A DNA stretch of 64,000 nt. Source: Polytrichum commune (taxonomy: Eukaryota; Streptophyta; Polytrichopsida; Polytrichales; Polytrichaceae). Below, piece after piece: positions 9,601-62,045 of this stretch (positions are counted from its first letter, which is position 1; each line of letters starts with the position of its first letter). The stretch is from positions 15,115,501 to 15,179,500 of the forward strand of contig OX485805.1 of NCBI GenBank assembly GCA_950295325.1. Direction: 5' to 3'. A program made the position numbers and the translations under genes. Under the pieces are notes generated by a model. That model was not told the origin of the DNA. It saw only the letters and a program-made list of their open reading frames with translations, and did not search any database.

Positions 9601-11088
9601 TAGTGAGCTCTTATGTGATTCCAAGATTAGCAAGGTTCGTGTATTTTGTAGTTCTCTCCATTCCATAGCTGGACATCAAGTTCATCCCTACTCTGCTAAT
9701 TTATTTAGTGTCAACTTCCATGTGAGGGGGGTGGCAAACGTTTTTTTAGCCTACAAATGCTCCCCTCCATGGTGGACCCCCTCTTCCCCATCCAAGGCCT
9801 TGCAAGCTCTCAGGGTACTCTCATGCAAGGGGGCAGGCATTTGTGCAATGTGCACTTTCTCCTCATTATATCACATTCACACGGTAGGGCTCATCACCTG
9901 TTAACCTCTAAGCTATCCTCCAATCAAGGCTCTTTATGTTGTGGGTAAGTTTGACCACAACGGTAGCATGGTCAAAGGATTATGTGAGCCTTTATGAGCA
10001 CATCTGATGGACCCAAAAGATTATTTTGGGACCATGTTGCCCAGATTGTTCCATGGGAGTTGACCCTTAGTTGATGGTGGAATCTGCAGGGCCGGGGGAG
10101 GAGCCTCATGGAGATGCAAATTCTGAACATTTCAGGAATGATACATCCACAGCTGTGCGGTTGCTCAGTGTTGAGGATTGTCAGGCATTTGCAGTTATGA
10201 TGGAATTGCAGGAAGATTTGGATGTTAATCATGTATACTTCCAGTTTGTTGCACGATACACCAGTATTCACCAAGCTGAGGTGACTCGAGTTGTGACTGT
10301 GCGACTGCCGACCACGCACAACATTTCAAACTACCTGCAAAGCGTGGATGATGAGGTACTCTTCCTGCAGGCCTTAACAAACTCAACAATTTTGTAGCAT
10401 GGTAGAAGGGCTTCTCCCTTTATAATTTGTGTTATAATGCCTGGGATATTGGCCATAGAAAGAGGCAAGGATGACTAGCTACTTAGCTCATAAAGTGGCA
10501 ATGGATTGTGTTGAAGACCTAATTTGCTCTAGGTGCTAATGCCAAGAATTTTGGGTCCAGAGATTGACCCCATTTGGCCTTGGGGCCACTCCTAAGGAAT
10601 TGAGTGCTGAAATTGTATCCCTAGGATTGATTTATGTGTAGAGTTCTTGGGGCCAGAATTGGGAGTAAGGTTATCCCATAGACTCTTCAAATATAGGCGA
10701 TAGGAATCTATTAAGGCACGGATTGGTTCCATTCATATCTTATAATCTGTGATGAGTCCATTCCCCTATTAGTGCAAGCAAGATTTCATGATGACGACAT
10801 AGGTTTCACTTCTGCAATTAGTAGTGGCTGAACTATTGATTTTTATTGTATAATCGGTTTTAATTCTGCAAGACTTTTTGGGGGCCCAAGAAGTTTGCAC
10901 CCAAAATAGTAATATATGTAGGTGGGCAACTCATCTTCAGTTTCTTTGCATTGTCTCGTAGGGTAAAAACTGCATCTCGATTCCCACGCCTTTAACCTTT
11001 AGGAATGGTCCATTTTGGTTGTGTTCTGGGCTTGGCCCTAGTCCAAATTTGCCCTCAGTTACCGGATTTTGCTCTAATTATATATCTT

Positions 11089-11134
<46 letters not shown>

Positions 11135-14059
11135 TTGGGGGTTCAAATCTGGGATCTCAATGCAGCCTCTCTGGTCAAGCTGCTGAAAATATAGGTATCT
11201 CAGAATAGATTCATGAAGGCCATGCTTGCCTAGTCATGTTCTTCATGTATGTTGGTGAAGTGGTTTTGAAGCACAAGCTTTTTGTATGTGGCCAGCTTTG
11301 TTATGAAGGTTTTGAATTTGATTTTATCTTGCATGGGACTCGTGCAGGTGGCAGCAGTGATAATAGCAAAGAAGACTGTGTTTGAGGCAAAGTCTGCTCG
11401 TGATGCAGGTTACATGCGAGCTTCAGTAGATGAGCGATTGAAAGACATTGCTAAAAAGCTCGGAAGTAATGCACCCAAGTCCAAGCAACTGCACTTCCCA
11501 ACAAGTCTTGCACGGTTGCCAGAGCTTTTGTTTCACTTAAGACGGGGCCCACTATTGGGAAGCATTATAGGTCATGAAGATGAGAGAGCCGTGTACAGAA
11601 ATCTTTACTTGCAGGTAATGGTCAATCCTTTTATCTTAGTATCTGAGTGCAGCTTGAAGATTTAGTTGTAAGTCTACACCTTTCCTTCATATTTTGGCTT
11701 CCTTCTTAAGGTTGCTGTGCTCTTGTCTGTTTCTTGACTTGGTTTGGGATTTATTATTGAGTCACACTAACTCCGGATGCCTTGTAGTAGCCTTCATTTG
11801 TGGCCACCTATCATTTGATATAAGTTTGAAAAGTAGTTTAAGAAAGTTTCCTTGTATGGTATGTCGTACCTGATCCTGATTGATATCCATTGCTTTCATC
11901 TTTAAGCTTTTTGGGTTCTTCAGTATAATGATGCAGCCCTTTGCCCTGCCTGAAGTTACTTATCATTGACAAAATTGCATGGAATTCTCAGGCTGGATTT
12001 GACCTTTCATTGCGGATGATGGCGCCAAGATTGCTTATGCATCGGGAGGCAGGCACCTTTGAAGAGCTGCCTGCTCATGATGTTGCCATGCAGTCAGATG
12101 CTGTGATTGTGTTGGATCATGGCACCGATTTATTCATATGGACTGTAAGTTTCTCTAAATTCTGCAGACTTTGTGTATTCTCATGGCAAATCACTTTTTG
12201 CGCATGCTGGATTGAATACCTTTGGGATAATTGATTTGCTGTAATAGATCAAAATGTATGATCTTTAGTGATTTTCCTCCAGACCAAATCCATATATTTT
12301 ATTGAGGTATGCGGGCCTTATGTGGTTGCTCTTCTTAAATGCACAGCTATATTTGTGTGGTATATGGCAATGCCTGTAGTTAAGATGGACACCAAAATAA
12401 CACGTGTTATGATGAGATTAGAAGACTATGCTCAAAATGTAGACACCATTCTAGGTTTCTTACTTAACACATTAGGAGGTCCTATCCAATCACTCGTAGT
12501 GGAGGAGAAATTTCAGTTTGAACTCCTAGGACTTTTGCATCTGAACCCCAATTCTGAAATGTGACTTGGCAATCTCCATGATTCGCAATTGTGAACTGGA
12601 TGAGATAATTCCCGATTAAATTGAACTCAATGGCCAGAAGTTTTTGTGGAGGTGGAACTGCCCACATTAAGGCCACATAGCTCAGGTCAAATAGATAAGA
12701 GTTGATGAGCCACTGTCAAACAAAGAAGACCGGGAGGGGGGTTTTCATCAACTGGGGATTTGTTTGGTGCAGGGGTCAATGGTTGTAGGGGACGAAGCTA
12801 AAAGTGCAGAATCACAGGCGGCTTGCCACACTCTGGCTCATGAACTCACAGAGCAGCGGTTTCCAGCACCACGGATGCTTTCATTTAAGGTTTTACCCTG
12901 CACTTTTGAGCTATGACCTTGCAACATAGTTTGGCAAGAATTCATAACATTCTTCAGCAGGCTGCACCTGCTCTGGGGTTCCCAGAAATATACTCTGTTA
13001 TGCTTAAATCAAACCTCTGTTATGCTGAGATTTTTTCAAAATCAGTCTAAATCTGGGAAGCAGAGCAGATGTTTTTGGGAACAGAAGAGAGCAGCCTGCA
13101 TAGAATGTTGTTTGAAATGTTCAACTAACAAAGCTCCTTCATTATGAAATATATATTTTTATGTATGATCTGAATGATCTAGTGGCACCTAGAAATGTTG
13201 AGGGCAGAGGCCAAACAGTTCTCTTCCGATGATTGTGATAACACAGAATGAAGGTCGAGAAGCAATATGGCCACTTTTATTTTCTAATTCTATACTAATA
13301 CTCTTATGGCTGTAGAATTAGTAAAAGACTGAAAGAATGGGAAACCAAGCAGTGAGTCTGATATTGTGCTTCAAAGTTAGTACGTGGAAATTTGTTTTCA
13401 TAATGAGACTCAGCTTTGTACATCGTTAGTCTATGTAAATTAAATTTCTCTGTAGCTGGTATGCACCATACCCCAACTTGTTTGTTCTCATGTGGCTTTC
13501 TGCCCCTCCATCAGTGTGTTTGTTGGTTAGGGATATTACTTGTGAAGTTGGCTTCTACTACCCATTCCTTTCCGGAAGTGCCTCATCTTGTTTTTCTTTT
13601 TTTGCAGGAGGGGAGCTCACAAGCACGGTACTTGCAGTCTAGATTGATACCTGCACGCAAAGACCCTCCTTATGAGCAGGTTGGTTCTAGAACACTTCTA
13701 GCTTGTCTGTCGGATATGTTTTTCTGCTCTTTCTGATGGAGGATTTCGAGGTTTCCTTTGTAGAGAAGTTTGTCATGCCTCTCAGATTTAGAGTGTTGCA
13801 ACTTTGTTGCCCATGGATGGGCAAAGGAATATGCAGGATTTCACAGTTGCACCTATTATCATTACAGCCTTTTCAATTTGCTGATCAAGGGCATTGTATA
13901 CATGTTTATTTGTGGTTGCAGGAGGCTAGGTTCCCGCAATTGAGGTCTTTAAGACCAGAGCAACGAGCTCGGTTAAAAAGCAGTTTCATCCCCACTGATG
14001 ATTTAAGCTTTCCTGAATGGATGAGAAGTCTCAAGCTAGTCCCTCCTGATCTTCGCTAA
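6601..14059 (+). CDS. SEC23: SEC23, COPII coat GTPase-activating subunit (10 exons, 920 aa)
   Basis: Exons: 6601-6802, 6991-7400, 8034-8328, 8681-9523, 10090-10355, 11348-11614, 11992-12144, 12773-12889, 13608-13679, 13922-14059. All introns are GT-AG and the total is 2760 coding bases plus stop. The protein is the SEC23 half of the inner COPII coat, stimulating SAR1 GTPase at ER exit sites. A Pro/Ser/Gly-rich N-terminus (residues 1 to about 190) precedes 'GFGAL' and a four-cysteine zinc finger (C243, C246, C265, C268). The trunk domain fills the large fourth exon, followed by beta-sandwich and helical parts ('LLFHLRRGPLLG', 'GHEDER') and the gelsolin-like end ('LDHGTDLFIW', 'KDPPYEQEARFPQ'). 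The extended N-terminus and exact motifs recall the divergent Arabidopsis clade of At4g01810 rather than canonical SEC23. The start is the first ATG in frame with a Pro-rich head. Domain assignment is certain; clade assignment is from memory. Confidence 0.94.
6922..6946 (+). repeat. (TTTG)n tract in SEC23 intron 1
   Basis: Several consecutive TTTG units inside the 188-bp first intron (6803-6990), shortly before its acceptor. It adds to the T-rich character expected near a plant 3' splice site. Confidence 0.75.
9571..9608 (+). repeat. Decayed copy of the SEC23 exon 4 3' end inside intron 4
   Basis: The sequence beginning 'cagatgagat' aligns with the last about 35 bases of exon 4 and its donor site (9493-9529). 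The last 24 bases match at 18 positions, and the copy still reads 'DIAVTEVISE' against the exon's 'EIAVTRVIGE'. It appears to be a local tandem duplication of exon end plus 5' splice site, about 78 bp downstream. The copy retains a GTGAG-like string (AGTGAG) but no evidence shows it is used. Confidence 0.6.
11092..11131 (+). repeat. (AC)n microsatellite in SEC23 intron 5
   Basis: About twenty uninterrupted AC units inside the 992-bp intron 5 (10356-11347). Confidence 0.95.
12946..13109. mobile_element. Foldback MITE in SEC23 intron 8
   Basis: Left arm 'aacattcttcagcaggctgc' and right arm 'gcagcctgcatagaatgtt' are inverted copies. The arms continue inward through 'ctgctctggggttcccag' and 'tttttgggaacagaag'. 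Total length is about 164 bp with no coding capacity. No clear target duplication was found. Confidence 0.6.
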
Positions 14060-18627: not shown

Positions 18628-19105
18628 TGGAACACAGCTGGCCAGTACTGTCTGGGGAGATTTGTGGGCACCATCGATCAAAATCCTAGTGTTTTCCAAA
18701 GTCCAACCGGTCTTTGATCGGGGAGAGCCGGCAGTCAGATACAGATGAACCGGTTGAGTTTGAGAAATAGCCGGTTGAAGTTCAAGACTGCAGGAAAATT
18801 ACCGATCATTTTAAAGGAATTTGTAGAATATACCCCAATTCAAAACCGGAGGATGTCAACTTATAACCGGTTGGACTTGCAAACACTAGGATCTCAAACC
18901 GGTTATGCCCAGAAATCTCCCCGATCACTGCAACTGATTACAAGTTGTGATCTTCCGGTTTTCCTGAAACACCTTGAGGTGCAGTCCACAGATTCCTCTG
19001 AACTGCAGAGTTATTTTCCTGAAGCCTTGAATGTCAACTGGTAATTCCTTAAACTCAACCGGTTCTTCTGTAACTGGCGGTAGGTTCTCCCTGTTCGTTG
19101 CAGCT
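18628..19105 (+). repeat. AACCGGTT-rich LTR-like repeat, copy R1, with inverted insert
   Basis: It begins TGTTGGAACAC and contains 'ccaaagtccaaccgg' and, near the end, 'ctcaaccggttcttctgtaac' and 'ggttctccctgttcgttgc', in the same order as copy R4 (61749-62045). Between these parts (about 18710-18930) sits the same unit in reverse, with 'gaaccggttgagtttgagaaa', 'ggttgaagttcaagac' and 'atgcccagaaatctccccg'. The structure suggests insertion of one family member in opposite orientation into another, or an internal inversion. Coding capacity is absent. Confidence 0.55.
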
Positions 19106-36281: not shown

Positions 36282-37078
36282 CTGTACAAAATCACCTACA
36301 TTCAAACAAACAACCAAAATCTCAAAACAAGGTTGGCGCACAGATCTAACTTAACCCATTTGAACATGCCTTCCTCCAATTCCCTGCTACCAAAGCTAAA
36401 TGCTCAAAATTCTTCGGCACACATGAGAACCTAACATATTCTTTGGACCTTATGGTGATCCAAAACTAACTTAACCCATCCATTTGAACATGTCTCCTTC
36501 GAATTTCTGCTACCAGGCAAGACATTTGATATTCTTCAGCACCAACACATTCTTCTTGCACCTTATATTGATCCACAACTAACTTAACCCATTCAAACAT
36601 GCCTTCCTCCAATTTTCTGCTACCAAGCAAAAAATTCGAGATTCTTCAGCACACAGGAGAACCCAACGCATCCTTTGCACCTTATAGTGATCCACGACTA
36701 ACTTAACCCATACATTCGAGCATGCCTTCCTCCAATTTCCTTCTACCAAGCAAAACATTCGAGATTCTTCGGCACACACACTCATTGCACCTTACGGTAA
36801 TCCAGAACTAACTTAACCCATCCATTTCAACATGCCGTCCTCCACTTTTCTGCTAGCAAGCAAAATATCCAAGATTCTCAACACCCAGGAGAACCCGACA
36901 CATTCCTGCACCTTACGGCAATCTAGAAACAACCCCAAACACAAAAGGGCATAAGAAAATTTCATCTACCACTAGAGCCTGCAAAATTGAAGAGGGAACC
37001 AACAGAATGCACGCAAGAGGGACCCACTTCCGGCCAACATTTAGGAGATTCAAGGACAGGGGTCGGAGAATCTAGTAC
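36282..37078 (-). other. Probable 5'UTR intron of G6PD
   Basis: On the minus strand a donor (CAAG|GTACTA) lies at 37078 and an acceptor (TTTTGTACAG) at 36282, 27 bp before the start codon. The in-frame stop upstream of the ATG lies inside this proposed intron. Leader introns are common in plant housekeeping genes. It encloses a five-unit minisatellite. Inferred from splice-site fit only. Confidence 0.45.
36348..36928. repeat. Five-unit minisatellite, unit 110-120 bp
   Basis: Units start with 'aacttaaccca' at 36348, 36468, 36581, 36700 and 36810. Each continues with 'catgccttcctccaat', 'ctgctaccaagcaaaa', 'gattcttcggcacac' and 'caccttacggtgatccagaact'-like blocks. Similarity between neighbours is high, so the array is fairly recent. 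It lies in the proposed leader intron of G6PD. Confidence 0.9.
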
Positions 37079-39949: not shown

Positions 39950-40380
39950 GGGTGGTACAAGGCAAATGAACGGGGAGAACCGACCGCTACATAAACCGGT
40001 GAACCGGTTGAGTTTGAGAAATAACCGGTTGAAGTTCAAGACCTCGGGAAAATTACCGATCGTTGTAGAGGAATCTATAGAATATACCTACCTTTAATAA
40101 AGAAAAACCGAAAGATGTCAACATATCACCGGTTGAACTTGGAAACACTGCTCGGGGAGAACTGGTGGTTAGTTACAAATGAACCGGTTGAATTTAAGAA
40201 ATAACCAGTTGAAGTTGGAGACTTCAGGAGAATAATGGATCATTCTAGAAGAATCTATGGAATATACCTCAAATGAATAAAGCAAAACCGGAAGATGTCA
40301 ACATGTGACCGGTTGGAGTTTGAATCACTAGGATCTTGACCGATTATGCCCACAAATCTCCCGGGACCACTGGGTATGAA
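39950..40380 (-). repeat. AACCGGTT-family repeat, copy R3, two tandem units
   Basis: Two units about 178 bp apart each begin near 'gaaccggttga' (about 40003 and 40181). They continue with 'agaaataaccggttgaag', 'gaatctatagaatatacct', 'gatgtcaacatatcaccggt' and 'ggaaacact'. The array carries several AACCGGTT or near-identical palindromes and ends 'gcccacaaatctcccggg'. Confidence 0.65.
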
Positions 40381-43346: not shown

Positions 43347-46080
43347 TTAAGCCTCATATTCATCATTTGTCTCAGTATCGTTGTTGTCTTCATCGTTGGT
43401 GTTGTATTCTAGCATAGTTGGTTGTTTGAAAATAAAACACTCCCATTGCGAATCAAGCTTGACTACCTCATATACATCAAAATTCAGTAAAAACTTGATC
43501 ATCTTTGTAAATATGTTGACCTCAATCATACATGCTTGCAAAGAAGATCGCTTTGGGGCAATGACATCATTCATACCACCATGATCACATTCCAACTTGC
43601 CAGCTAAAGCTTTGTTTGCGAGGAGCGGCAACACAACCTTCGACAAACATAACAACAACTTCCATCGAGACTTCATACTACACAATTACAAGCTTCTTGA
43701 GGCTCTACTTCTATCTTAAGATCTAACGCCTTGAAGATATGGATCTCCGCCTTGGCCATAGATTTTGGAGTTAGTTCAAATTGAGCAGTTGGTTGATCCA
43801 AACGTGGACGTGACAAGATGGATGAGATAGTCATCAAAGTCTTTAGGTGTTTGGCTACACGTTCATTATCACTAGCTAGCAAGAAAAAACCGCAAGTTGT
43901 ACTCGAATGTTTATCCCTAATCAAGCCTTCGACCACCATCTTCGCCAATCTTGTAATAGACCTCCAAATGTAGTCCTTGAGAAGGTTGGTGAACGACTTG
44001 CGCAAGTCTTGCACTAACCAACCATTTGGTACGTCTTGGTCCTCGATTTCCAACGCTTGTAACATGTTGTCAATGAGTTTGCCGTTCTGAGGACCCAGGA
44101 ATAATACAATTTGCATATCGATGACATACAAGAACTTGACATTGTCAGTATAGAGCGAGGAACAATCGATATATCCTACAGCTTCGCCATCGATGATGTA
44201 TACACGGTAGAATATGTTGGAGTACTTCAAAGCATTAATGGGATGATATCGGTTATAAAACCTCTTACATAGCGTTTGTCGCAATAGCTTTTGAACATGT
44301 TGTGTCATGGGATCAATCATGGTTAGAATGCACTCCTCCTTTGGGGGCGGGGGGTTCCAAAGGGGATGGGAGTGAGATCGTGGATTAGTAATGGGCACAT
44401 CGGGTCAAGAATGGTTAGCAACAAATGACACATCATGATGTAAACATCAATAACTATGAATGTCTTCATGGATTGCGCCATCGTTTGAATCTCGCGAACA
44501 TGAACAATCATGGAATATAACTCAACAAGAATGTTCTCGTGTTTGATGACATTACATATTATTTTTTGATGGCAAAAGGCAAAGATGAACGGAGAGTGTG
44601 CATTGATAAGTCGCTTGAGAACAATAGCATTAGACGACTACCGATGCCCAAACGCATTCTTTTGCTTGATAAAATAACCAAATTCGTCCTTGGTAAACAC
44701 ATCGACAATGTCCTTTAATGCCTCCGACTTATTGGTCATCTTCACCACCGAGCGAGCATCATCGAAGACTTTTCGTGCATCCTTGTTCTTACACTTGGTT
44801 GAATCGAGGTGGATGTCGAAAGCATCAACAAGGGAGAGGTGACACAAGTGGGATATACACCACTCATACATAAGTGTCATGACAACTTCAACATATCGCT
44901 TGACATTGGAGCCAAAATCAAAATTACCAGTAAGCATATGCACAAAGAATTCGATATCAAATTCTCGCATAACACCTCTAGTCCAACTAAACAAGTTATC
45001 AGACACTTGATAATTGTTGCACTTCTCGATTGTTGGAGCATATCAATGAATGGCCAAGTTATTGCTATGTGATGATGACCACCAAAGCCAACTCAGATGT
45101 AAAGCAAGAAATTTCATATTGTTAAATTTATTATGATAAAGATCCATGTTAAGGGACATGAAAGGGATATGAATTCGTTTTTTGGTAGGGTTGATCTCCT
45201 CTACTATTCCTCGCTTGAGTGTCTTAGGGGCGGTTTACACTATGGACCATGAAGTCGTCCCACGTAAGAGGCCTATTTTGCGTGGGACGACTTCATGGGA
45301 CAACTTCCATGGTCCGAGTTACTAAAATATTAGTTTTCATGGTTCATGGGCCCTTCACTAGGTGTAAACCGAATGTGGACCATGAAGAATGACCATGCAC
45401 CAAAAAGGCTTAAAACGGCATTTTTCTGACATGGGCCCTTGCTCTTTTTCCCGGACCACCTCTTTTGCTTGTCCCAACGGAAAACCCGTTGGACCATGGC
45501 AGTGGATAGAGTAGGCTTAAAAAATAATATTTTGTGGACCTCAACCTCCGTGGTCACTCTGCCATTTTTTCCTTGGTGTAAACCCAAGTCGTCCCGGGAC
45601 GACTTCAACGTCCAATCACATCGCTTAGACGGCCGTGGGACGACTTCATGGTCCATAGTGTATACCGCCCCTTATATAGCTCAACCATGTGCTTACGAGG
45701 GTGAAACTAGTCATCCCGCCAAGTCCAACAAGCAATTGCGAGGCAATAAGCCTCCACCGTTGTGTCTCAAAAGCGTGGTACGACATCGATTGCACATGCG
45801 CCCATGCAGAGATCTACTCTTGGAACCACCTAAGCAAGTTAGCTTTGAAAGAATTCCAAGAGAGATCGACAAGTTTGGAGAGTTGATGAATTGTTTGTTG
45901 TTGTGATATTGTCTTGCTAGAGACAATACAATGTTGAATCTTCAAATGTTCAGTAACATTCGATGAAGCATTCTTGCTATATTTGATCCAAATAGGTTTA
46001 GATTTTTCATAGCATTGTCCCAATAGACATAGGAACCATTCACGGTTGTCACCATCCACAACGTGTACCGTATTCTCCAT
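43347..46080 (-). pseudogene. hAT transposase pseudogene, split by a MITE
   Basis: Read from 46080 leftwards, the first block carries a BED-type finger ('CLLGQCYEKS', then 'SSNVTEHLKIQH'). After the MITE at 45227-45671 the frame resumes with 'SLNMDLYHNKFNNMKFLALH' and 'KDEFGYFIKQKNAFGHR'. There a Trp codon is replaced by TAG (44638-44640) before 'SSNAIVLKRLINAHSPF'. A frameshift near the G-run at about 44345 and another near 43675 follow. The end reads 'DVIAPKRSSLQACMIEV', the region of the hAT C-terminal dimerisation domain. An in-frame stop also follows 'LRWFQE'. The pattern is typical of an old hAT transposase, with several stops and frame changes, so no active enzyme is expected. Confidence 0.65.
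45227..45671 (-). mobile_element. Tourist-like MITE, copy B, nested in the hAT transposase
   Basis: Terminal inverted repeats of about 38 bp begin GGGGCGGTTTACACTATGG and end with the inverse, CCATAGTGTATACCGCCCC. The flanking TTA direct repeats (45224-45226 and 45672-45674) are perfect. The interior matches copy A in reverse ('ccaacggaaaacccgttgg', 'caccaaaaaggcttaaaa'). TTA/TAA target and GG(G/C)-type tips indicate PIF/Harbinger mobilisation. Confidence 0.88.
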
Positions 46081-47739
46081 AAAAATCGAAGAAGATCACC
46101 CCTTCATTTGCTTCAATTGAGGGTCTTTAATATGCTTGGGCCACTAAGGATCTTCAAAAAATGCCTTTATACGATCACTCACAATGTTGGGCTCCGGAAC
46201 AACCTCCATGTACACCACTAACACAAATAACACACTAGTGACACTATAACACTACAATAGAATTCCGTGTTTACATCCTCTACATACCTACACATCCAAA
46301 AATCCAAATCAATCCACCTCAAAAGAAAACTTAAAAACCAATATGGAAACTCCACCCCCCGTTTGTAATTATCAAAACGACATCTGTATGCAGGAGAAGT
46401 ACACCACATATTACACTGAAAATTGAAACTAATACTTGTGGGGCGTGAAAGCAAAGCACTACAATTGAAATTGTAACATTAAACTCACTCTTCTATGGAT
46501 TTATCCCACCAAAATTTATAGATTGCTTTTTATCGTAGAAATTTTTATCAGTAGATATCACAACCATCCAAATCAAAAGAAAAGCCTTCTATGGATGAAG
46601 TAATAATCAACAAGTCTGGTGGCTTTCAAAATGTACATTTCAGCTGAGATCTATACAAATGAAAGGAAAACTACACATATGGCTCTCATAAGGCTCTACG
46701 ACAAAACAACTACTCAAGCAGGAACCATAGTCCAGAAGACCCATAACCATGTCGACCACTGAAAACAATGTTGAGGTAATGAAAAGGTTTGCAAAATTCT
46801 TCATGTGGGTTATTTCCTTCCCAAACAATTTTTTTTTCAGTACAGGCTTAAGGCGTTTTCTATAGGTTAAGACACCAATCCTATTGTGCTAGATTCCTCC
46901 GAGCCTGAGCTTGAAAAGCAACAACATGTACCACTACAATTCAATTTTATTCAAGTAAAGATCAAATTGACCTTCATAAGTACCAAAGGACCCTAACAGT
47001 GCACATTATGCAAACACAAGAGGTTGAAGCCTAATCCACTTAACACATCGATGACATGAAGTTTTTGGGACTGTCAAATCATCGCAACCACAATAAAAAG
47101 CAATGGAAGGAAATCCCGGAGCTTCAACCATAAACAATTGAATCAACATCACAAGAGCACTAGCAACATGTGATTGCAACACCTAAAACTCTAGGAAACG
47201 CTTAACAAAAACCTCATTTCTGGAGGATCCATCACATGTTGAAGAAAAACCATACTTACACGTCTTAGATCAATTACACAACAACTAAACCAAAAAGCCT
47301 CTTCTCCTCAGTTGCGGCTAGTGAAATTCTCTTAAACCCCTAGAAAACTCATGTTGCCCATGCCCATCCAGAGAGACCAATGCATCAAGTGTAACAAATA
47401 AAAGAAAGATAGTGAAACATACATACCTCGCCTTCTGGAGATTGTCATGTGCACTCTCAAAAGGCTTTAGATCAAAAAGAGGAGAAGCTTCAAGATATAA
47501 TAAATATTTGAAAACCATTAGCCTTTAGCCCCTCGGTCCTCGTCATCCTACCATGGTTTCAGGCTACACTCAACTTTAGTTAACTAGAAATAACTAAAGT
47601 TAACTAGACTTTTTGGTAAGTCAAATTGTGAAAAACTATAGTTACGAAAGGCAACTAGTTAACTAATAGTTGAATTAGTTTGTTAGTTGTCCAAGGTCTG
47701 AAGGCCTTTATATATGACCATAACGGTCCGTACCAATTA

Positions 47740-48640
47740 TTAATTCCCCTTGATAGACTATACTAGTTGTGGGCTCTCCTACCCTTCCCCCAATCCACCC
47801 TCTCCCCCAAGATTTTCCCACCAAAATACCTGTATTAATCCAAAGATATATAAAATAACTCCCTCGCCACCAGCCACGCCAAACTTCTCACATCAACAAT
47901 CATCACTCCTTACCACATCATATGCTCTCCCCATTAATTGACTCCTTCGACCTCACTCATTCCTATTTTTCGTTGCCATTAACATGCCTTATCAACTTCA
48001 CCCAATATTACTCCCCCATGTACGAGACACATTATTTGGATCACTCGCTCAACCTTCTCCTTTCAATGGATAGGTAACGGATATGCACATCTCATGCATA
48101 TCCATATGCTTCCTAAAGCACTTAAATGGGCCAAACTCGCCACTCAACAACACCCCCGGAACCTCATTATTCCCACTATCCCACATGAAGATTTGTCATA
48201 ACAACCTCCCACAATCCTAGACCACCCAAACATACACCAAGATATGACCATCCCCTCCCCTCCCCTTACAATTCAGTACTCCCCTCCCCCAAACTTCCCA
48301 TCATACTACATCATGAAGGAACCACTTCTTAAGCATCATATGCATCCATCACCACTCACGGCTGCCCATCCAAAACCTCATCTTCACTCTCCCTATTGCA
48401 ACCCACTCCTTCCACCATCCAATGATAATTCTCCCCACCCTCCCCTAAAGCAAATTCTTAACTATCATACCACAACTTGGATTCACACCCCCTTACCACT
48501 GCATCTTCACCCCCCACCACTACCCCCCACTATTACCCAAATCTCTCCCTTCAACTTTCTCGCTAGATCCATTTACCATACAAATGGTTATATCACCCAC
48601 CCCCTCCCCCTTGGACTCGAAAGGTCAAGGTAATAGCGTA
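47740..48640 (+). other. C-rich, Pro/His-coding stretch, possible retroelement relic
   Basis: Unusually C-rich plus strand with scattered stops; one 129-codon frame (48244-48633) encodes a low-complexity Pro/His/Thr/Leu protein. It leads directly to an RNase H-like relic, so it may be the eroded upstream part of the same LINE. No domain can be named. Confidence 0.25.
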
Positions 48641-48845
48641 TGCTCTAGAGTTTATCATTGATCCACCGGGATCCATATTGTTGCCAAGCTCCCTGGCTAC
48701 CCAAATATTCTCCGCGACAAGCTTTATGCTTTGTTATTAGCAGTCCAACATTTACTATACAAAATCCATATGTTTATTGACAATCTCAACAATATCTACC
48801 TTCTTCATGACCATAATTGACACCCATCTTCACAGCATAACCACC
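48640..48845 (+). pseudogene. LINE-type RNase H relic
   Basis: One plus frame reads 'GIHIVAKLPGYPNILRDKLY', then 'ALLLAVQHLLYKIHMFIDNL', 'NNIYLLHDHN' and, after a stop, 'HPSSQHNHH'. This is the order found in RNase H domains of plant non-LTR retrotransposons (an acidic residue before YALL, a D in 'F.D.LN.IYLL', and 'HPSSQHNHPDKLL'). In-frame stops and a replaced acidic residue indicate decay. Confidence 0.5.
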
Positions 48846-48883
48846 ATGAGAGATGAGGAGTTTATCATGGTGGTTATGCTGTG
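48831..48883. repeat. Perfect 19-bp inverted repeat (hairpin)
   Basis: Left arm CACAGCATAACCACCATGA (48831-48849) and right arm TCATGGTGGTTATGCTGTG (48865-48883) are perfectly complementary around a 15-base loop. It sits on the 'SQHNHH' codons of the RNase H relic; the right arm reads the same 'SQHNHHDKLL' motif on the minus strand. Confidence 0.9.
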
Positions 48884-48950
48884 ATTCAAAATGAGAGATG
48901 AGGTTGATATAAAATCCCACATATATATCCCACTTTTCCATACTAAAAAA

Positions 48951-48953
<3 letters not shown>

Positions 48954-48987
<34 letters not shown>
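48954..48987 (+). repeat. (AC)n microsatellite
   Basis: About seventeen uninterrupted AC units. Confidence 0.95.
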
Positions 48988-48988
<1 letters not shown>

Positions 48989-48989
48989 C

Positions 48990-49777
48990 TTGATGATTTT
49001 TAGCTTGGAAATGTGGTTGATCATCAACCTCACCCAACGTACATCATTCTATAATCTACAATCACCCTTCACATCATTTGGAGTCTAGGTTTGTTCTGCC
49101 TACATGTTCATTATTTCATGCTTTTTCTTTGGTTTTGTCTTTTCTTCACAATCACACCTTAGACATGACCACAATCTTCGTTGAAGAAGTGTGCTTTATG
49201 AAAATTTCATCTCCAAATACAAACTCCTCTTGATAGAAATTCAACATCATAAAATTGTCCCAAGTATCACTCCGTATTCTTTGAATTATGTTTGATGCAC
49301 AATGTTTGACATGACATGAGGACAAAATTTTCAACGGCATGTGACATCAAAGTGGACTTATTTTCCAAGTACTTCCTTCTGTTGACTATAAGAGATAGGA
49401 TAACTAGACCTAATTGTCTATGACCTTCAATTTCACATCCAAAATAAACACAACATGAACATGAGAACATTACACGAACATGAAATTTGAACACACTTAT
49501 AATCAACACTTTGTCCAAAAATGACATGCTAAGATGTATTGAAATCCTTTCTAAAGTATCAGCCCATAATCCAACTCTAAATAAAACTATTCTTTAATCA
49601 TAACATTGTGCCCAAAATGCTAAAAAAAAAAAGACAATGAAAGGTAAAGTTACCATACGCAATGTTTGTTGCTCATATGTTTACGGATTTCCTCAATAAG
49701 AAGAAAAATTCACTACACTGATTATCCCACTTAATGCATGTTACTATTTGAAGTTACACAAATGCAATAATGTCTTG
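48990..49777. other. Intergenic DNA, no gene seen
   Basis: Short frames only, none recognisable. Confidence 0.5.
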
Positions 49778-49785
49778 CTAAGGAG

Positions 49786-50135
49786 CTCGGGGGGGGGGGG
49801 GGGGGGGCAGTGTGTTAAAAAGTTAAGGATATAGGTGCGAACAACCACTATTTTATAGGGGGGTATTACTTTCAATTCTCTTCTTTTTTTCACATGCTAT
49901 CATTATGTAAATTTATACTTTGGGTTAATAGAAAAATGGCTTGCATTACTTATAATTCCAAATTATCTATTATTCCATACCCTATAGTACTTTAAAGATG
50001 TTCAATGCCATTTTTGATACCCTATATTACTCTTAAGTCCATTTATAATTTTTAGCTCCCATGTTTTTAAAATACCCTATCATTTGTTCGCACGTATATT
50101 GCTACTCCAACCAATGACTACCCCCCCCCCCCGAG
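49786..50135. mobile_element. hAT-type MITE with poly-G ends and perfect 8-bp target duplication
   Basis: Starts CTCGGGGG with a run of about 18 G and ends with a C-run followed by GAG. The direct repeat CTAAGGAG flanks both sides (49778-49785 and 50136-50143). A second inverted pair, 'ggtgcgaacaa' and 'ttgttcgcacg', lies inside the ends. The 350-bp interior is AT-rich and non-coding. The intact target duplication indicates a recent insertion. Confidence 0.85.
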
Positions 50136-50143
50136 CTAAGGAG

Positions 50144-50360
50144 TAACGAAAGTTCAAAAAGTTGTTTGGACAATCAAGGAACATTAATGACTTGGCTTGG
50201 TATATATTACACACTCATTAAATAGTTTCAGCACATGTAACTCCAAATAGTAATACACAGTAATTGGGATAATCAGTGTACATGAGATGATCATGGGTAG
50301 ACTGTGAATGCTAATGCCAGTGAATCACTCGACTGGGTACTACTTCTTTTGCTAAAGTAG

Positions 50361-50409
<49 letters not shown>

Positions 50410-53022
50410 ATAGATTGCTTTCCGCTTGAATTGACCCACAGTCAAAGATGGACACAATTCTAATGTTCAAATTGTTAAAAACCCCAAGACCAAGACCAAG
50501 GTCAATCACCATGATTCATGCTAAGGTAGACACAAAATTTTCAAACACCTACTTTTGGGTGCAAAACAACTCAATATTCTTCTAAAACAAACACTTTTAA
50601 TATCATTTTTAGGATCAATACAACAACTCATTGGCTGCAAGATAATCACAAAGCCGATGCCAATGTTCACTTACCACTAGCTATTTTATGAGCATCATAT
50701 AAGGTAGATGTGCTTTCGATGGATATTTTTCTCTTTGCACCCACTTCTCATAGGATATGTAACATGTAGTTAATGCAAGATGATCAACAAATCCAAATTG
50801 TACATGTGGCCATTTACCTAATCATTTATGGAACTCATATGAAATTTTTGTTTATTACCAATGTGAAGATTCTCGTGCTCATTAAGTGCTCATAGAGTGC
50901 CCCCTCAATTGTGTTGTCTGATGAGCCTAGAATAGTTAGCATAGTTTGAGCACATAGTCCAATCTTTTTTCAAATACATGTCTTTTTAGTGCAATTCTTA
51001 GATCCACACCTCACCACACATCATTCAAATATAGGTACCCAAATTATTAGGCATGTCTACCTTAACCCCTAACAATTTTTGGTTGATGAATGATTTATGC
51101 CCTTTATTACCCCATCTAGCTCATATATGCACAATTAAAAAAATACTATAAACATCAACTTGACATGGATTTCTACACATTGACACATGACCCATGCAAT
51201 TTGGAGATAATTGGAATGTGCATAACTTGTTCAAAAAAGAAAATGGTCATATTTTGTTGTGTTGGGAGCTCACATGAGGGTGTTGACTCCAATCAATGGT
51301 TGCCACTCCAAAGCAAACATTGCTCGAACACCTGGTGTTTATTTGGGTACAAGTGAAATCTTTTTTGAGGTTCACGTAAATATAGCCTTCATACTAGCAT
51401 TGACCAGTTAGTATAACTTTTGCATACTCTTTAATTTATAAGGAATTCTCTACATATACATAGTTAGAAATATGGGACATTTCACACACTCCTAATTGCA
51501 AAGTGGCTAAGCCATTGTAATAAGCACATTTTGGCTTGAGAATTTGAGAAGGTAATCAACTATTGAGTTCTTCCCATCTACTAGGTGCATTACACAAACA
51601 CTTTATTGATTTTGTAGATGAATTGGATTGGTCAAAGATCTTTTATTGAGGATAAAACATGTAATTTTCATGTGCACCCCTTCCTTCAAATGTTATAATT
51701 TGAAATGAATAGGATGTTTCATGCCCATCTTGGTCTTAAAAATAGCTCATCTCTCATGTTTGAAGATCCCAAAGATATATCCCACTTTGAACTCAGAATT
51801 TGTCCATGTAAAATCTACAATCAACAGTGAGTGAAATGCACTCAAAACAACCCTTTCATAAGCTTGGAAAGTTAAGGGTTAACCACTCAAGAAGATCTCT
51901 TTGAAAATATGTCACAAATTGACATTTTGTCATCTTGGGCTCGTTCTTATGATTTGGAATTCATACAACATCTGCTAATTGATTTACTTCTCTTTCCCTG
52001 AAATGCATTGTACTTTAGAAGAGGTCAAATCTGCTGGAAATATCTGTAGTAGGCACATCTACCTTATTATAACTCTGCAGTGTGGTCCGCTTAGGATTTC
52101 ACAATGCAAATCTCAATCTAATCTCACAACCCTCCAAGTTGTATTATTTTGGAATGCTCGCTCCAGATTTTCCTTGAAGCAGTGATTGAACTATTTGCAC
52201 CTGAAGTTGATTTTAGATTAATTCTGTCCTTATTAGGACCAACATGTTATACTTGTATTCATTTTATTGTTCAAAGGCGTTTTCTTGCAGGGTACACAAA
52301 CATGTCTAGTGCAACATATTTTCAGTGTATAGGCATTTTGGGATCACAACAATTATCCATTGATCAACATTGAAGAATTGATGGGAGTATGGTGTACACA
52401 TGAGCCATTAATTGTCACCAAAAAAACTCAAAGACTAAACCTATGCCCTAAACTATACACAGGCCTGAATTGCAGAATATAGCAATATGTAGCGATACTT
52501 GAGATAACCCAGTTTTTTGTAGATACAATCAACTTCTTCCTGGATTTGTAAATGCATCCATTCAATGCTTTCTAGAGTTCAACAAAGACACCCAATCAAC
52601 ATCGCAGTCCCTGTGAAGATATAGCAATCACATCCACACACTAATTTAAGACTCATCTTGATCTTTGCATCAAAAATGCTTGTGACAAATAAATGTTTTG
52701 TTGACAGCAGTTCATAAACCCCACATGAATTGCCATGTACATGTGAGCCCGAACAAATTATGGACACATGACAGTCATTAATGGGTAAATGGGCCACTGA
52801 TCCTCACATGCTCAATCTGTACATTATGTACACATAGGTTCAGTCTGAAACAAGACGATTGCAAAACTCCTAGTTGGAAGGAACCTAAGGTTATCCCCTT
52901 ACTTGTCTCTAACTCAATGTCAAGAGACATTGTTAAATAAATAAATGCCACCTTGGTGGCTGAGAATGCCACCTTTGGTCCTGGTCTATATAGTATGATA
53001 ACTTCTTACAAAATGTAGTGTG
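50144..53022. other. Intergenic DNA and IadA 3' region
   Basis: Contains a (CT)n tract at 50362-50405. No gene recognised. The 3'UTR of the isoaspartyl dipeptidase gene should lie just left of 53023. Confidence 0.5.
50362..50405 (+). repeat. (CT)n microsatellite
   Basis: About twenty-two uninterrupted CT units. Confidence 0.95.
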
Positions 53023-55107
53023 CTATAATTGTGCCTCACAACAGTTCCCAATACATTCACAAATTGAGTCCTCTGGTGATTTCAACACTTTGCCGCCCGC
53101 AATAACGTACTCAACTTCAAGGTTTTCAGCACTTAAGATTACAATGTCTGCATCTCCACCTACTGCCAATTTACCTACACAAAGCACACAAAGCCACCTC
53201 AACCTTTAGTAGATCACAGGAGATGTAAATATTGGCAAGTTCATAGTTGTTGTTTGCATTGTGAACACTGATTTCAAGCTTCTTATTTGATATTTTTCAT
53301 GTCAATCAGTTGAAGCTATAAGTTTCATGTGCACCTTCCAAGTATTGCAGGCTACAATCTCTAAAAGTTCATATATGGATGTCACTTTGGAGTTATTCTA
53401 TAATTCAGCATGACTTTTGGTTGGGAGTTGGTAATTTTGCATACAACACTTTCCATGTTCGGTAAGCTTCTTGGTGCATTGCTTGGAGGCAGTGTGGAGG
53501 TTTCAACAATGAACATACTATATCAGTTCATTGAAAGTGAAACTCATTTTGGCATGCCAAGAGGTGCTAAAATGAGTTTCCAAAGTAGGTTGCCTGTCAT
53601 TCAAATTCAAACACTACCTCCGAGTATGCACAAGTGGATAAAAATTTATGAGAATGTATGCAAAACAATAAATGGTAAATCATAGGGGACAAACTCCCAG
53701 CGAATAGTCCCATGAGTTATAGGATAACTCTATTTTACAGGAATAAGTACATTGAGTGAGAAGTGCAAGAAAGGGATACCTTTTGTTTTAAAACCGAGAA
53801 AAGTGGCAGGGTTAATAGTGCACAATTTAAGAGCATCTTCAAGCTCCCACTTGCCTTCCTGGACAAGTCGCCTTATGGTGTTCAAATTTCCTTTTGGTGA
53901 TGCAATTCCGTATTCAATGAGCTCTCCTTTGGCATTGTATTTTGGCAATGAACCAAACGCATCAGATGAGAGGGAGATACCCTGCAGATGGCCATTTCCA
54001 GCCCTCTTCCCCCAATCCATCAAAGCATTGAAAGACATGCTCTCCCCCTCTTGATCAGCCGTGAAATCGACACGGCCTCCTTTGGAAACCCACCCCTCTG
54101 CTGCCTACAACACACCAAACACAACTTTTTAAGAGAATTAGCCACTGCAACATCAACTGTTCAATTGCATCTTCTCAATTTTAACAGACTGAGGGTTGTA
54201 ATAAATTGATAACGCCTATGTTTGCCAACACTAGCATGAATTATGGTGTCTCTTTGCTAGCAGGCTTCCACTTAGAAAGAGGTGGATTCTTTCTAGCACT
54301 TATAACCATGGCAACTTAATTGCCAATTGTTCCTACCCTATTAGGCACGGTGAGCCCCTCAGTACCACAACTTTTTAAATGACTGGTCGACCAGGTGACA
54401 TCCTCACGATGACTGGGTACTCCATAGCAGGTAACACTAGCATGGCTTGGTGGAGAATGGAACCCACACTACTTGCAAGGTGGACATGAGTCCCCACACA
54501 CTTAAGCTATTGGCTTGATGCTTGAAGTTGTAAAGATGCATCAATGACAGTTAGGGATGCTAGAGTGATCTTTGCTCCAAGCAGGGGATTCTTGATCTTG
54601 ATTGATTCACAAATGAAGTGAGGTAGAGCATGCTAAAACCCCACCCAAAACCAACACCTAAAGCTTGCGCAAGAAATACATATCGATTATGAGAATGTCC
54701 ACCACCTTAACATCAGGTTCCAGTGATAGGGTCATCTATCAATAAAAATTTGAACCCTTGTGACTTTTGTGTATGGAATTCAAATAAGACATACTGTGGT
54801 GCATTGGAATTCCCTGTCAATTGCTATCGAGAATCAGTGAAGTTTTTTCTTTTTTTTAGGTAATCATCTCTATTGAGAAAAAGAAAAGTAAGAGGATACC
54901 TTGAGAAGAGCGGGTCCACGACCTGAGACATGAGTAGGAAGCATGTGTGACATGGGTATGGTGCCTCTGCTTGCCCTCAAAACTTCCCAAAGAGGCTCCA
55001 ACATAGAATCTCCAGAGCCAGTATGGAAGTGCACAATTCCTGCCTTCCCAGAGAGCATACCTCCAACTCGCGCATCTGTTACTAGGCCCAGGAGCTCCTG
55101 CAAATAT

Positions 55108-55138
<31 letters not shown>

Positions 55139-58100
55139 TGACAAACTACCCAATTTGAGGGCTCACAAAGAAAGCCAGAATATATGTTGCCTATTTTATG
55201 TGTTTTACACTTAAGTTATCGAGAATCCAAGCTGGGAGAGAACTCCTCCACACATGCCAAGTGTTCACCAAAATTGTGGTGAACAAGAGCTTGCAAGGCA
55301 CCTGTGACCTGCCAACTTCCCAGAAACATGGACAGAGATTCACACACTTCGACCACTTGAATTGAACCATTTGTGAAGATGAAGAAGGAAATTTTCCAAG
55401 GCTTCAATCTTGACACTGAGTGACATGGGTTACAAGAGGCCAGGCCAGGAGCACTTGGCAATTAAGCCAAGTCACAGCAGCATTATTGCAAATCCTTAGT
55501 CAAAGAAGCATAATGTGTAGGACCACTACAACCATGATTACTTTGTCTATGATAATTGTGTGGTGGACTAACTCAGATATTAATACTCCTTAGGATGACC
55601 ACTCTTTACTCAAATTTAACCTCACTACTACTTGATCAAATACAAATAAGCCACAACTCTTCCAAGTTTCTGATTCAAAACAAGAATAATTACCCGAGTA
55701 GAACTTAAAAGGTGTTATCAAAATAGGCAAACCAAGTTACTAACAGCACCAGCAGAGTCATAAGTACAATAACCAATATGAGGAGCTCAACTATTGGTTA
55801 TAGCCCGTTGCCTTCTTGAGCTGCGGGAACGGCAAGTGGGCATGGCTATGATTTGGGTGACACATGTCAGCTATCATACATAACCATATATGGAGAAATT
55901 GAGCTAAGCAAGATATCAAGATTTCATGTCATTTTTTAGGTGTTTATTACACCAATCATGGAGAGAGGGTAACGGGCTATAACCAATGTTGGAACGGTAT
56001 ATAGGTGAATGCATGGGTATCAATAATCAACATCAGTAATCGTATCATAGATCCCACCCATAGGTATCAAATCTATAATACTGGTCAAATATTGATATTT
56101 GTGGTATGTCAAGGTGAGAGAATCTTGTATACCCAAGTTATTGTTTGGGTCAATACCATTCTAAACCATATTGATACTTGGCAATTTCAACTTTACCTAT
56201 GTATGAAGGTTCTTGCATGGTATATAGACCCAAATGGTATCACAAACACAAATACCATCAAATACCCATACCCTACTGGTATCAAAACATGTGAAATCGT
56301 CATTACAGATAACCGAATGCTATAAAGAAAAAGACGATACCAGTCCAACACTGGTTATAAACATCCCTTTCATAGCCACAAGAAAGATGCCGCATCAAAG
56401 AGACTCCTCCTCGCACCAGTTATGAGACATAATGAAGAGCTTGCAGCACATTGCAAAACCAGTGGGTCAAGCATACTTCATAATTGAATGTGTAGTGGAG
56501 GCAGATGTATTTTGTACCTGAGTACTGGGCCAGCTGCTCCGATGGTCGCTAATGGCAATTTCACCAGCACCAACAACTTCATCAATTAATTGCATATCTC
56601 GGACCAGAGATCCAGTGAGCGTGGGCGAAGGGACTCGGTAGCATCCACTCCACATGTAAGCAGTGATGCCTTGTTCACGCAGTGCCCCAACTTTTGTATG
56701 CAAATTCTCCAGGCTGCACCAAAAAGGATATTGACTTAGGTTATGCAATTTCCAGACAGACAGAGGCAAATTATAGATGAGGAGCCAGAGGAATACGAAA
56801 TCGTTAGCTCGAATTCATCATGTCCACACTCTGACCAACAGTTTCCATGAGATGATGCTTTACCTTATGGTGGCCTTACAGCTGGGGCGGTGTGTTCACT
56901 TCCCGAACAAGGGCGTTAGCTCAGAATTGCCTGGCTCTGCAACAAATTTAGTGGCCCAAGTTTGATCATGATTCTTCCAGTAATTTCTCACCTCATGTGT
57001 TTAAATTTTTACCATATAGGGATTTCCCTAGGCTGATGGATTCCTGGTTGCTGGTTGTCTTGAGAAATGATCCATGATTAGTCCCCAGTGAAGGCCACAT
57101 TCATGCTATCATGACCCATCCATTTTCTACAGATAGGGAGGTAGGTGGATGTTAACCTTTAGATTTCATTTGACTTTATATTTCAACACACTTCTGAGTT
57201 TCATTATTCAAGAAATCAACATAGATGTATTAGACCACACACATATCAGCCTTTCCTGAACAAGTTCCATTAAATTCGTGTAACTTAGCCCAACTTTTCC
57301 TGTGAAATTTTCACAAGCAAGAGACCTGTTACTCCAATGTTTCATGCAACGCCATTTACACTGATCAAAGTGTTCCATGTAAGTCCTCGTACAGGTAGAG
57401 CACTGATAAGTAGTGCCCAGTGACTTTTTCTCAGAAAATACAGGCAACTGGAAGCCTCAACACAATCACACCAAAATACCAGAACTTCACAAATAATTTT
57501 TACCGACTACACTATCTCATGAATTGAAAACGCATGGAGAACGACATCTTAAAGCATGACTCATTCATCACCTCATCCATTTTGTACAGATAGAGGTAGG
57601 TGGATAATAATCTTGAGATTCAAGTCAACACACTTATGACATTCTTCACACTCAAATCGACATAGATGCGCCAAACCACACACATGTCAGCTCATCCCGA
57701 ACAAACATGAATTTCGTATGATCCAACTTCTCATCTGTGAAGTTCTCACAATAAAGAGATTTGTTACTCCAACTTTCATGCAACGCAATCTAAACCGATA
57801 AGTACAGCGCACCAATGACTATTCTCAGAAAATACAGGCCACTGGAAACCTCAACACATTGAGGCAACAAAACCCAAAACTTCATAATAACTCTTACTCA
57901 CTACTCAGCCAGAGAACGACATTCTCCAGTAGGGATTAATTCACATGAAGAACCACACAGCGCTCAATCTCGGGTCAACATCACAAAAAACTCCAAAGAA
58001 AAGGTAAAATCTTCCCAACGCCATCCAAATCGACAAGCACAGTGCACCGTTTAATAATCCCCATTGTTTACTTTCCTCAGAAAATACAAACAACTGCAAA

Positions 58101-59072
58101 CCTCAACACATTCGCGCAACAACACCCAAAACTTCACAAAGCTTCTTACTGACTGCTACACAATTCATTCAAATAACATCAGACAAAGAACCACATTCTA
58201 AAGTAGGCATTGATTCACACGAAGGATCCATAGCGCTCAATTTCGGGTAAACATCACCAAAAACTCCAAGAAAAAAAGCAACCCCTTCGTAAAGGCATCC
58301 AAATAGATATGTATAGCGCACCAATAAGTAATGCCTGGTGACTGTACTCAAAAAATACACACAACTAGAAACCTCAACACATTCACGCAACTATACCCTT
58401 AACACTCAAACCTTCACAAAAATTCTCACTGACTACTACACAACTCACTCCAATAAAATTACACAGAGAACGACATTCTAAAGTAGGAGTTGATTCACAC
58501 AAAGATTCCACAGCATCCGAAGAAACATCGCTAAACAATTCAAGAAAAATAAAGAAACCGCTTCACATCTCCCAATTGCGTATTCTATACACAAACAATG
58601 CTTCTTCGAAACCAAAATTCCCTTACCTCCTGGAGACACAATCCGTGCCCAAAACTCCCACCAAGGTTGTAATCCCAGCATCAAGAAGTTCGCCCAGCGT
58701 ACCCTCGGGGGTTCGGCTGGCAGGGCCCATCTCCCCACCCCCACCGGTCACATGTACATGGATGTCGACCAACCCGGGAACCACATACCCACCCGCGGCA
58801 TCCACAACTCTCACTCCCAACCCAGTGAGATTTTCGATGGGAAATTCGTCACGCATGATGGAAATTATGGCACCCCCTCCGACCAGGATGGACGACTTGC
58901 CTCTCGCAGCAGGAGCGTACAAGTTGCCATTCTTTATAAGCAGCAAGGGAGCGTGTGCGCTGCCAAGGAGCGGTGAGGAAGGAGGCGTGCATAGTGGTCG
59001 AAGGGCGGGCGGGGAGACGACGAGGCAGGGGAGCAGGAGGAGCAAAGCGAGGGACAGCAAGGGCATCGCCAT
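53023..59072 (-). CDS. iadA: Isoaspartyl dipeptidase (IadA type, peptidase M38), secretory; 5 exons, 438 aa
   Basis: Exons in coding order: 59072-58627, 56713-56518, 55097-54900, 54104-53780, 53174-53023; GT-AG introns, 1317 bases in all. IadA enzymes hydrolyse beta-aspartyl dipeptides left by spontaneous Asn/Asp isomerisation. Diagnostic motifs: metal-binding HVH in 'VDIHVHVTGGGGE', 'GITTLVGVLGTD', substrate Tyr in 'YRVPSPTLTG', 'IAISDHRSS', 'HFHTGSGD', 'LPTHVSGRG', and catalytic Asp in 'SLSSDAFGS'. The bridging position three residues before ISDHR is Glu instead of the carboxylated Lys of the E. coli enzyme. The first about 27 residues ('PLLSLALLLLLPCLVV') form a clear signal peptide, so the enzyme should enter the secretory route, unlike the bacterial cytosolic form. 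The start is the first ATG; an upstream in-frame GTG was not used. Length is about 48 aa over E. coli IadA because of the leader. The C-terminus is Cys-rich ('CECIGNCC'). Confidence 0.92.
53435..53665. mobile_element. Foldback MITE in IadA intron 4 (family TTTTGCATA)
   Basis: TTTTGCATACA on the left and its inverse TGTATGCAAAA on the right. The interior 'ttggcatgccaagaggtgct' and arm 'cagttcattgaaag' match the G6PD intron copy at 31734-31980. Non-coding. Confidence 0.6.
55108..55136 (-). repeat. (TG)n tract next to IadA exon 3 acceptor
   Basis: On the gene's strand about fourteen TG units end 10 bases before the acceptor (GATATTTGCAG|GAG), taking the place of a normal pyrimidine or U-rich tract. 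Confidence 0.9.
55793..55987. mobile_element. 195-bp TIR element in IadA intron 2
   Basis: ATTGGTTATAGCCCGTTGCC (55793-55812) and GGTAACGGGCTATAACCAAT (55968-55987) are inverted copies matching at 19 of 20. Non-coding interior; no clear target duplication. Superfamily not assigned. Confidence 0.75.
57120..58550. repeat. Degenerate tandem repeats in IadA intron 1
   Basis: 'cattttctacagatagggag' at about 57121 recurs at about 57579. A 'ctcagaaaatacaggcaact' plus 'cctcaacaca' block appears near 57431, 57831, 58077 and 58347. A 'gagaacgacattctaaagta' block recurs from 57538 to 58488. Period varies between about 250 and 460 bp. The array fills most of the 1.9-kb first intron. Confidence 0.7.
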
Positions 59073-59139: not shown

Positions 59140-59460
59140 AGAATTAAAGAAGCGAAGAGAAGTGTGAGGGGAAGCTCAAGTTTGCCACATCGGCTACTTA
59201 TGTGGCACTAGTTGGGGGCTTATTAGGCTTATAGTAGCACCCTACACCTTGCCTTAGCTTCTTACATTGGAATTGCTGAAAGGCTTGACATGTCTTATAC
59301 ACAAGCCACGTTAGGACCACACTACGGTTGAGAGCCCTCGTACTATAGTTCACATATTATCTTCACACTATTCACAAATCTTAGTACATCGTGCTATTCA
59401 CATATCTAACCAAGCTATTCACATATCTTTATATTTGGCATATCTTTACACTATTAGTGT
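59140..59460 (-). promoter_or_regulatory. IadA upstream region
   Basis: Contains three or four 'ctattcacatatct' strings between 59345 and 59440. No TATA box was assigned. Promoter role inferred from position only. Confidence 0.3.
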
Positions 59461-61748: not shown

Positions 61749-62045
61749 TGTTGGAACTTGAATCCAATGTATGGGGAGACTTTTGGGCATCATTGATATG
61801 AATCCAGTGTCTGGGAAGACTTTTGGGCATCATCGATCTGAATCCCAGTGTTTCCAAGTCCAACCGGTTACATGTTGTGATCGTTCGGTTTTTCTTCATT
61901 AAATTGAGGTATATCTCACAAATTCTTGTAAAAGGATTGGCTATTTCCTTAAAGTTTTGAACTTCAACCGGTTATATCTCAAACTCCGCTGGTTCATCTA
62001 TAAATAGTGGTCGGTTCTCGTTGTTCATTGCTTGGATCTTTGGGC
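61749..62045 (+). repeat. AACCGGTT-family LTR-like repeat, copy R4
   Basis: Begins TGTTGGAACTTG, contains a local duplication of 'gacttttgggcatcat', then 'ccaagtccaaccggtta', 'aacttcaaccggttatatc', and a TATA-like 'ctataaatag' followed by 'gtcggttctcgttgttcattgc'. The order of a TG start, AACCGGTT motifs and a late TATA box is what a solo LTR would show. No primer-binding site or internal retroelement domain was recognised beside it. Confidence 0.5.

Follow-up and report, generated by a model that had tools for sequence, protein, structure and literature searches.

An IadA-like gene with an N-terminal leader

The genome of Polytrichum commune contains an IadA-like gene that is real, intact-looking and a well-supported member of its family. 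The gene lies within the stretch of 64,000 nucleotides that was analyzed (hereafter the window), on the minus strand at positions 59072-53023 from start codon to stop codon, and encodes 438 aa as read from the genomic DNA. Sequence and active site support the assignment of the predicted product (the window protein) to the Type I isoaspartyl dipeptidases of the amidohydrolase superfamily (MEROPS M38, IadA), and a hydrophobic leader would probably send the enzyme into the secretory pathway. On balance, we consider it fairly likely that the gene encodes a functional zinc-dependent Type I isoaspartyl dipeptidase with a secretory leader, which would act in the vacuole, the ER or the apoplast. The enzyme family is known and no new kind of system is involved; a leader of this kind was, however, found in none of the prokaryotic relatives that were read.

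Gene structure

The initial annotation had placed five in-frame exons at 53023-59072, and these coordinates proved to be exact: the joined frame of 1317 nt is without a break, and the four introns are all of the GT-AG type, with phases 2, 0, 0 and 1. Exon 1 (58627..59072; minus strand, as for all five) contains the start codon, the leader of 42 aa, the start of the beta-sandwich, the HxH motif (H105 and H107), the GGGGE motif (E114) and T143, and ends in phase 2 at AG/GTAAGG. Exon 2 (56518..56713), ending in phase 0, contributes Y174, R207 and the bridging E200 characteristic of Type I, and exon 3 (54900..55097), also with a phase 0 end, contributes the predicted metal ligands H239 and H270 as well as R274. 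The predicted metal ligand D328 and S332 are encoded by exon 4 (53780..54104, phase 1 end), while exon 5 (53023..53174) encodes the GxDAD segment of the beta-sandwich part and a Cys-rich C-terminal tail, followed by a TAG stop codon. A TATA-like hexamer, TATAAG, which is a consensus match only, is located on the minus strand at 59228..59233, 161 bases 5' of the start codon. Intron 1 is repetitive: an 88-nt unit occurs in four diverged copies between 57424 and 58514, and TRF calls a tandem period of 280 nt at 57910-58505.

Family assignment

That the protein is a bacterial-type IadA, as originally proposed, was supported by profile and structure database searches together with the active-site residues described below. 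The NCBI equivalog model for beta-aspartyl-peptidase, TIGR01975, matched residues 44-420 with 351 bits (E 9.1e-105) against a cut-off of 331.25. Across 14 control genomes, the same model gave matches in 12 at E 0.001 but exceeded its cut-off in only one, and in nine bacterial genomes or records it scored 437-574 bits. The best match in the PDB, 7cf6 (284 bits, E 1.5e-83), covers residues 43-420 and thereby touches all five exons, and the nine top distinct sequences of this search all carry the name isoaspartyl dipeptidase. Because of these family matches in TIGR01975 and the PDB, a chance match is excluded. A search against Pfam placed the window protein at the level of the amidohydrolase superfamily only. 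Allantoinase and dihydroorotase belong to the same superfamily, but the allantoinase model, which was the next best, reached 57.5 bits (cut-off 357.85) and the dihydroorotase models shown at most 47.2 bits, compared with 351 bits for IadA; an identity as allantoinase, dihydroorotase or hydantoinase was ruled out by these profile scores.

The N-terminal leader and the predicted localization

Residues 1-42 of the window protein (58947..59072, minus strand) form an N-terminal leader, with the most hydrophobic 15 residues starting at residue 5. The leader contains 13 Leu, 6 Ser/Thr, one Lys/Arg, one His and no Asp/Glu, and reaches a hydropathy peak of 2.97 over a 15-residue span. Among the 340 ATGs of the window that are followed by 42 open codons, three reach this value, namely the two start Mets of the gene itself and one ATG in a CA microsatellite, and when the bases of the leader were shuffled 20,000 times, no shuffle did so. 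Within exon 1, in-frame ATGs occur at residues 1, 3, 73 and 115 only, and the frame upstream, open for 46 codons as far as a stop, contains none; therefore, a protein begun at an ATG past the leader would lack part of the core.

In an alignment of eight sequences, the N termini of the relatives fall at about residues 36-43 of the window protein; the only exception is a single Met set at column 1 by the aligner. The core of the enzyme FiBAP of Fervidobacterium islandicum begins at once without a leader in the stretch compared, and E. coli IadA is cytosolic. More broadly, a comparable leader was absent from the N termini of 96 prokaryotic relatives, read from 103 loci in forward frames with ATG, as opposed to GTG or TTG, as the start codon; the seven loci without a row (L087 and six of L088-L103) are due to the use of forward frames. 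An ATG extension of at least 15 residues is possible in six of the 96, with hydropathy peaks of 1.47 or below, and as none of them shows a leader-like peak, a secreted donor among the prokaryotic relatives read from ATG starts was rejected.

The strong N-terminal signal peptide of the initial annotation is partly upheld. Its hydrophobic core is present and is missing from the N termini of the relatives, but no basic residue precedes this core and no well-fitting cleavage site is found nearby; a simple -3/-1 rule is passed only after residues 37, 38 and 39. A single N-glycosylation sequon, at N81, adds weak evidence. It is hydropathy that points to a probable retargeting of the enzyme to a secretory compartment.

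The same enzyme might instead reside in the cytosol or the plastid, either with the leader unused, through an alternative first exon joined to an internal acceptor, or with the leader acting as an organelle signal. We regard this as rather improbable, though as the most serious alternative. An alternative first exon is conceivable because an acceptor-like sequence, CTCCTTGGCAG, is present inside the leader near codon 37 as a candidate 3' splice site, and the lack of acidic residues in the leader and of Lys or Arg ahead of its hydrophobic core would also be in line with a non-secretory enzyme. Against this, the reading frame continues without a stop through the leader, which ranks in the top three of the 340 open ATGs by hydropathy (the second Met of the gene accounts for another of the three) and is rich in Leu rather than in Ser/Thr (13 and 6 of 42 residues, respectively). 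A secretory localization is the favored reading.

Active site, conservation and substrate

Alignment to FiBAP and E. coli IadA predicts H105, H107, E200, H239, H270 and D328 as metal ligands. On the substrate side, E114, T143, Y174, R207, R274 and S332 correspond to Glu77, Thr106, Tyr137, Arg169, Arg233 and Ser289 of the E. coli enzyme, where R274 falls into register only if the window protein carries an insertion of one residue; for T143 and its counterpart Thr106, we take the substrate-side role as given. In addition, G112 corresponds to G68 of FiBAP. The roles of the residues in IadA and the definition of Types I and II, by a Glu or a carbamylated Lys at the metal bridge, follow the accessible text of PMC7774594. 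By homology, two zinc ions bound to the six predicted ligands would activate a water molecule, which would then cleave the beta-aspartyl bond in the dipeptides that remain after proteolysis of isoaspartyl-containing proteins. An IadA enzyme would be expected to hydrolyze beta-aspartyl dipeptides as an octamer with two zinc ions.

The closer of the two reference enzymes is FiBAP, a Type I enzyme that we equate with PDB entry 7cf6; the entry is listed by molecule name only, but its residue types fit the positions given in the accessible part of PMC7774594. The two proteins share 41% identity and agree at each of the 13 positions compared, among them the Glu at the metal bridge that marks Type I. 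FiBAP differs in having a Gly in place of Met115 of the window protein, and it is described as hyperthermophilic (PMC7774594). E. coli IadA (PDB 1onw), compared through the iadA gene of the E. coli plasmid record AP026530 (L004), is 38% identical and shares the ligands except for the bridge: as a Type II enzyme it has, in the position of Glu200 of the window protein, Lys162, which is carbamylated according to the accessible text of PMC7774594. At this bridge position, 76 of 97 relatives carry Glu and 21 carry Lys, and the careful tree described below requires three changes between the two, so that no single clade is marked by the residue alone.

Among the 97 relatives, 71 positions are conserved to at least 90%, and the window protein matches 69 of them; since so many strongly conserved positions are kept, it looks functional. 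Eighty of the 97 relatives were found in genome contigs with the pattern H[ILV]xGGGGE[GAM]G (the best 80 of at least 474), and the conservation of H107, E114 and the letters after E114 is partly forced because these are included in the pattern. The initial annotation had reported all IadA motifs, which holds for the 13 positions checked against FiBAP, with a qualification at the C terminus, where a GTFE-like end, present in 60 of the 97 relatives, is absent and a Cys-rich tail is found instead. The FiBAP row was typed without its end and is counted among the 37 of 97 without a GTFE-like end. A missed last exon with such an end was considered, and two matches in 46,000-53,174 were taken as chance by a rough hand estimate.

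The window protein is unusual at two positions that adjoin conserved active-site residues. Directly after E114, in the stretch included in the search pattern, it has Met115 where 97 of 97 relatives have Gly or Ala, and Phe330 replaces an Asn or Gln found in 90 of 97. With these unusual residues, the specificity may have shifted, and the gene could encode a diverged IadA with a secretory leader and another substrate, for example a different beta-aspartyl or an N-acyl amino acid conjugate. The TIGR01975 score of 351 bits, compared with 437-574 bits in the nine bacterial genomes or records, would agree with such a divergence. However, the window protein retains the FiBAP residue at each of the 13 positions compared and its score exceeds the equivalog cut-off, and we consider a change of substrate quite unlikely.

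Genomic setting and origin

The four GT-AG introns and two further genes on the same contig support the eukaryotic setting proposed in the initial annotation. A Sec24-like COPII coat gene has exons at 8004-11662 on the plus strand and encodes four Sec23/Sec24 domains according to Pfam (zinc finger, trunk, beta-sandwich and helical), and a glucose-6-phosphate dehydrogenase (G6PD) gene starts at 36255 on the minus strand, with twelve exons identified by eye as far as 32390. Joined by eye, these twelve exons scored 434 bits against the top PDB chain, and chains from 9emm down gave at most 254 bits; some of the latter (e.g., 1dpg) are presumably bacterial G6PD. The N terminus of the G6PD in the window is, as we take it, of the plant cytosolic type, and it is this resemblance on which the term "plant-like" for the genome is based. 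A pseudogene or bacterial contamination, for which no supporting point was found, is highly improbable and was rejected on the four GT-AG introns, the unbroken frame, the 69 of 71 conserved positions kept and, with respect to contamination, the Sec24-like and G6PD genes on the contig.

No tRNA or Rfam matches were found in the window. A tandem repeat with a period of 232 or 110 is located at 36346-36915, just 5' of the G6PD start, and a dispersed repeat family with GAACCGGTTGA... occurs at 18736, 40000-40329 and 61846-61996, with copies in both orientations. In addition, the GC skew at 46001-50000 is strong over 4 kb (-0.26 and -0.35), the plus strand being C-rich; a search with one open frame of this region led to no gene assignment.

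Among the relatives fetched, which include the best 80 of at least 474 from the pattern search, the highest identity to the window protein is 45%. Two trees were built, a quick one with 87 rows and a careful one with 59. In both, the window protein, the sole eukaryotic row, forms a lone long branch (2.28 and 1.98 changes per column, respectively), and in neither does it have a supported sister or belong to a supported set of up to half of the rows. The quick tree places it beside two Halomonas rows and one further row (L001) with a value of 3, which amounts to no support. The best identity of 45% and the long branch without a supported sister therefore lend no support to a recent transfer out of the bacteria sampled. 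The ancient gene transfer that the initial annotation suggested, beside a rare eukaryotic retention, is neither shown nor excluded by trees and identities, which do speak against a recent transfer out of these lineages. The distribution of IadA in prokaryotes is patchy: at E 1e-60, matches occur in 40 of 297 genomes sampled from the phylum to which an Aminicenantes genome belongs, and in 18 of 398 sampled from that of a Chimaeribacter genome. A search of viral contigs gave one match of 29 residues.

Discussion

Isoaspartyl residues represent damage that proteins acquire with age. Plants had been assumed in the initial annotation to handle such damage by PIMT and plant-type asparaginases, in partial agreement with the isoaspartyl dipeptidase activity of plant asparaginases (PMC5481357, PMC5638241) and the presence of PIMT in eukaryotes (PMC7774594), as far as the accessible text of these papers goes. 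The assumption may have to be qualified, as Arabidopsis M38 genes have been counted at the family level. The accessible part of one survey gives M38 (isoaspartyl dipeptidase) as present in Arabidopsis and absent in Chlamydomonas (PMC8643629), and that of another lists one Arabidopsis and three Populus genes under the family-level label "M38 Beta-aspartyl dipeptidase family" (PMC1780054). According to an excerpt of PMC5753285, the M38 family consists mostly of non-peptidase homologues, and the surveyed Arabidopsis and Populus genes may therefore be other amidohydrolases. No description of an IadA-type plant gene was found among the paper listings covered or in the accessible parts of PMC8643629, PMC5753285, PMC10206079, PMC7774594, PMC5638241, PMC12416817, PMC5481357 and PMC1780054; an isoaspartyl dipeptidase is mentioned in several fungal papers. 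Plant databases may already contain annotated orthologues of the window protein.

Expression, zinc binding, activity and targeting of the window protein are predictions from its sequence. Under the favored reading, the leader would direct the enzyme to the secretory pathway, and the breakdown of isoaspartyl peptides would be finished in the vacuole, which we tentatively favor, or in the ER or apoplast. Plant-type (Ntn) asparaginases, such as PpASPG3 of pine (accessible part of PMC5481357), carry out the same kind of reaction in plants, but are evolutionarily unrelated to IadA and use another catalytic mechanism, as stated for IadA and IaaA in an excerpt of PMC10206079. Some plants might have retained, in the vacuole or as a secreted enzyme, a metal-dependent isoaspartyl dipeptidase that forms an independent second route beside the Ntn asparaginases. 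It would work on isoaspartyl peptides in places other than the cytosol and might also take cyanophycin-derived beta-Asp-Arg, a wider proposal that we regard as improbable. Bacterial IadA enzymes can degrade beta-Asp-Arg released from cyanophycin (accessible part of PMC10206079), and hence contact with cyanobacteria, through the cyanophycin of symbiotic or dead cells, is a speculative source of this substrate.

With a secretory metal-dependent dipeptidase, part of the turnover would take place in a compartment not discussed in the accessible parts of the literature on plant asparaginases (PMC5481357, PMC5638241). The IadA-like gene offers one target for knockout or tagging, and it is a candidate case of a prokaryotic-type gene gaining a targeting signal.
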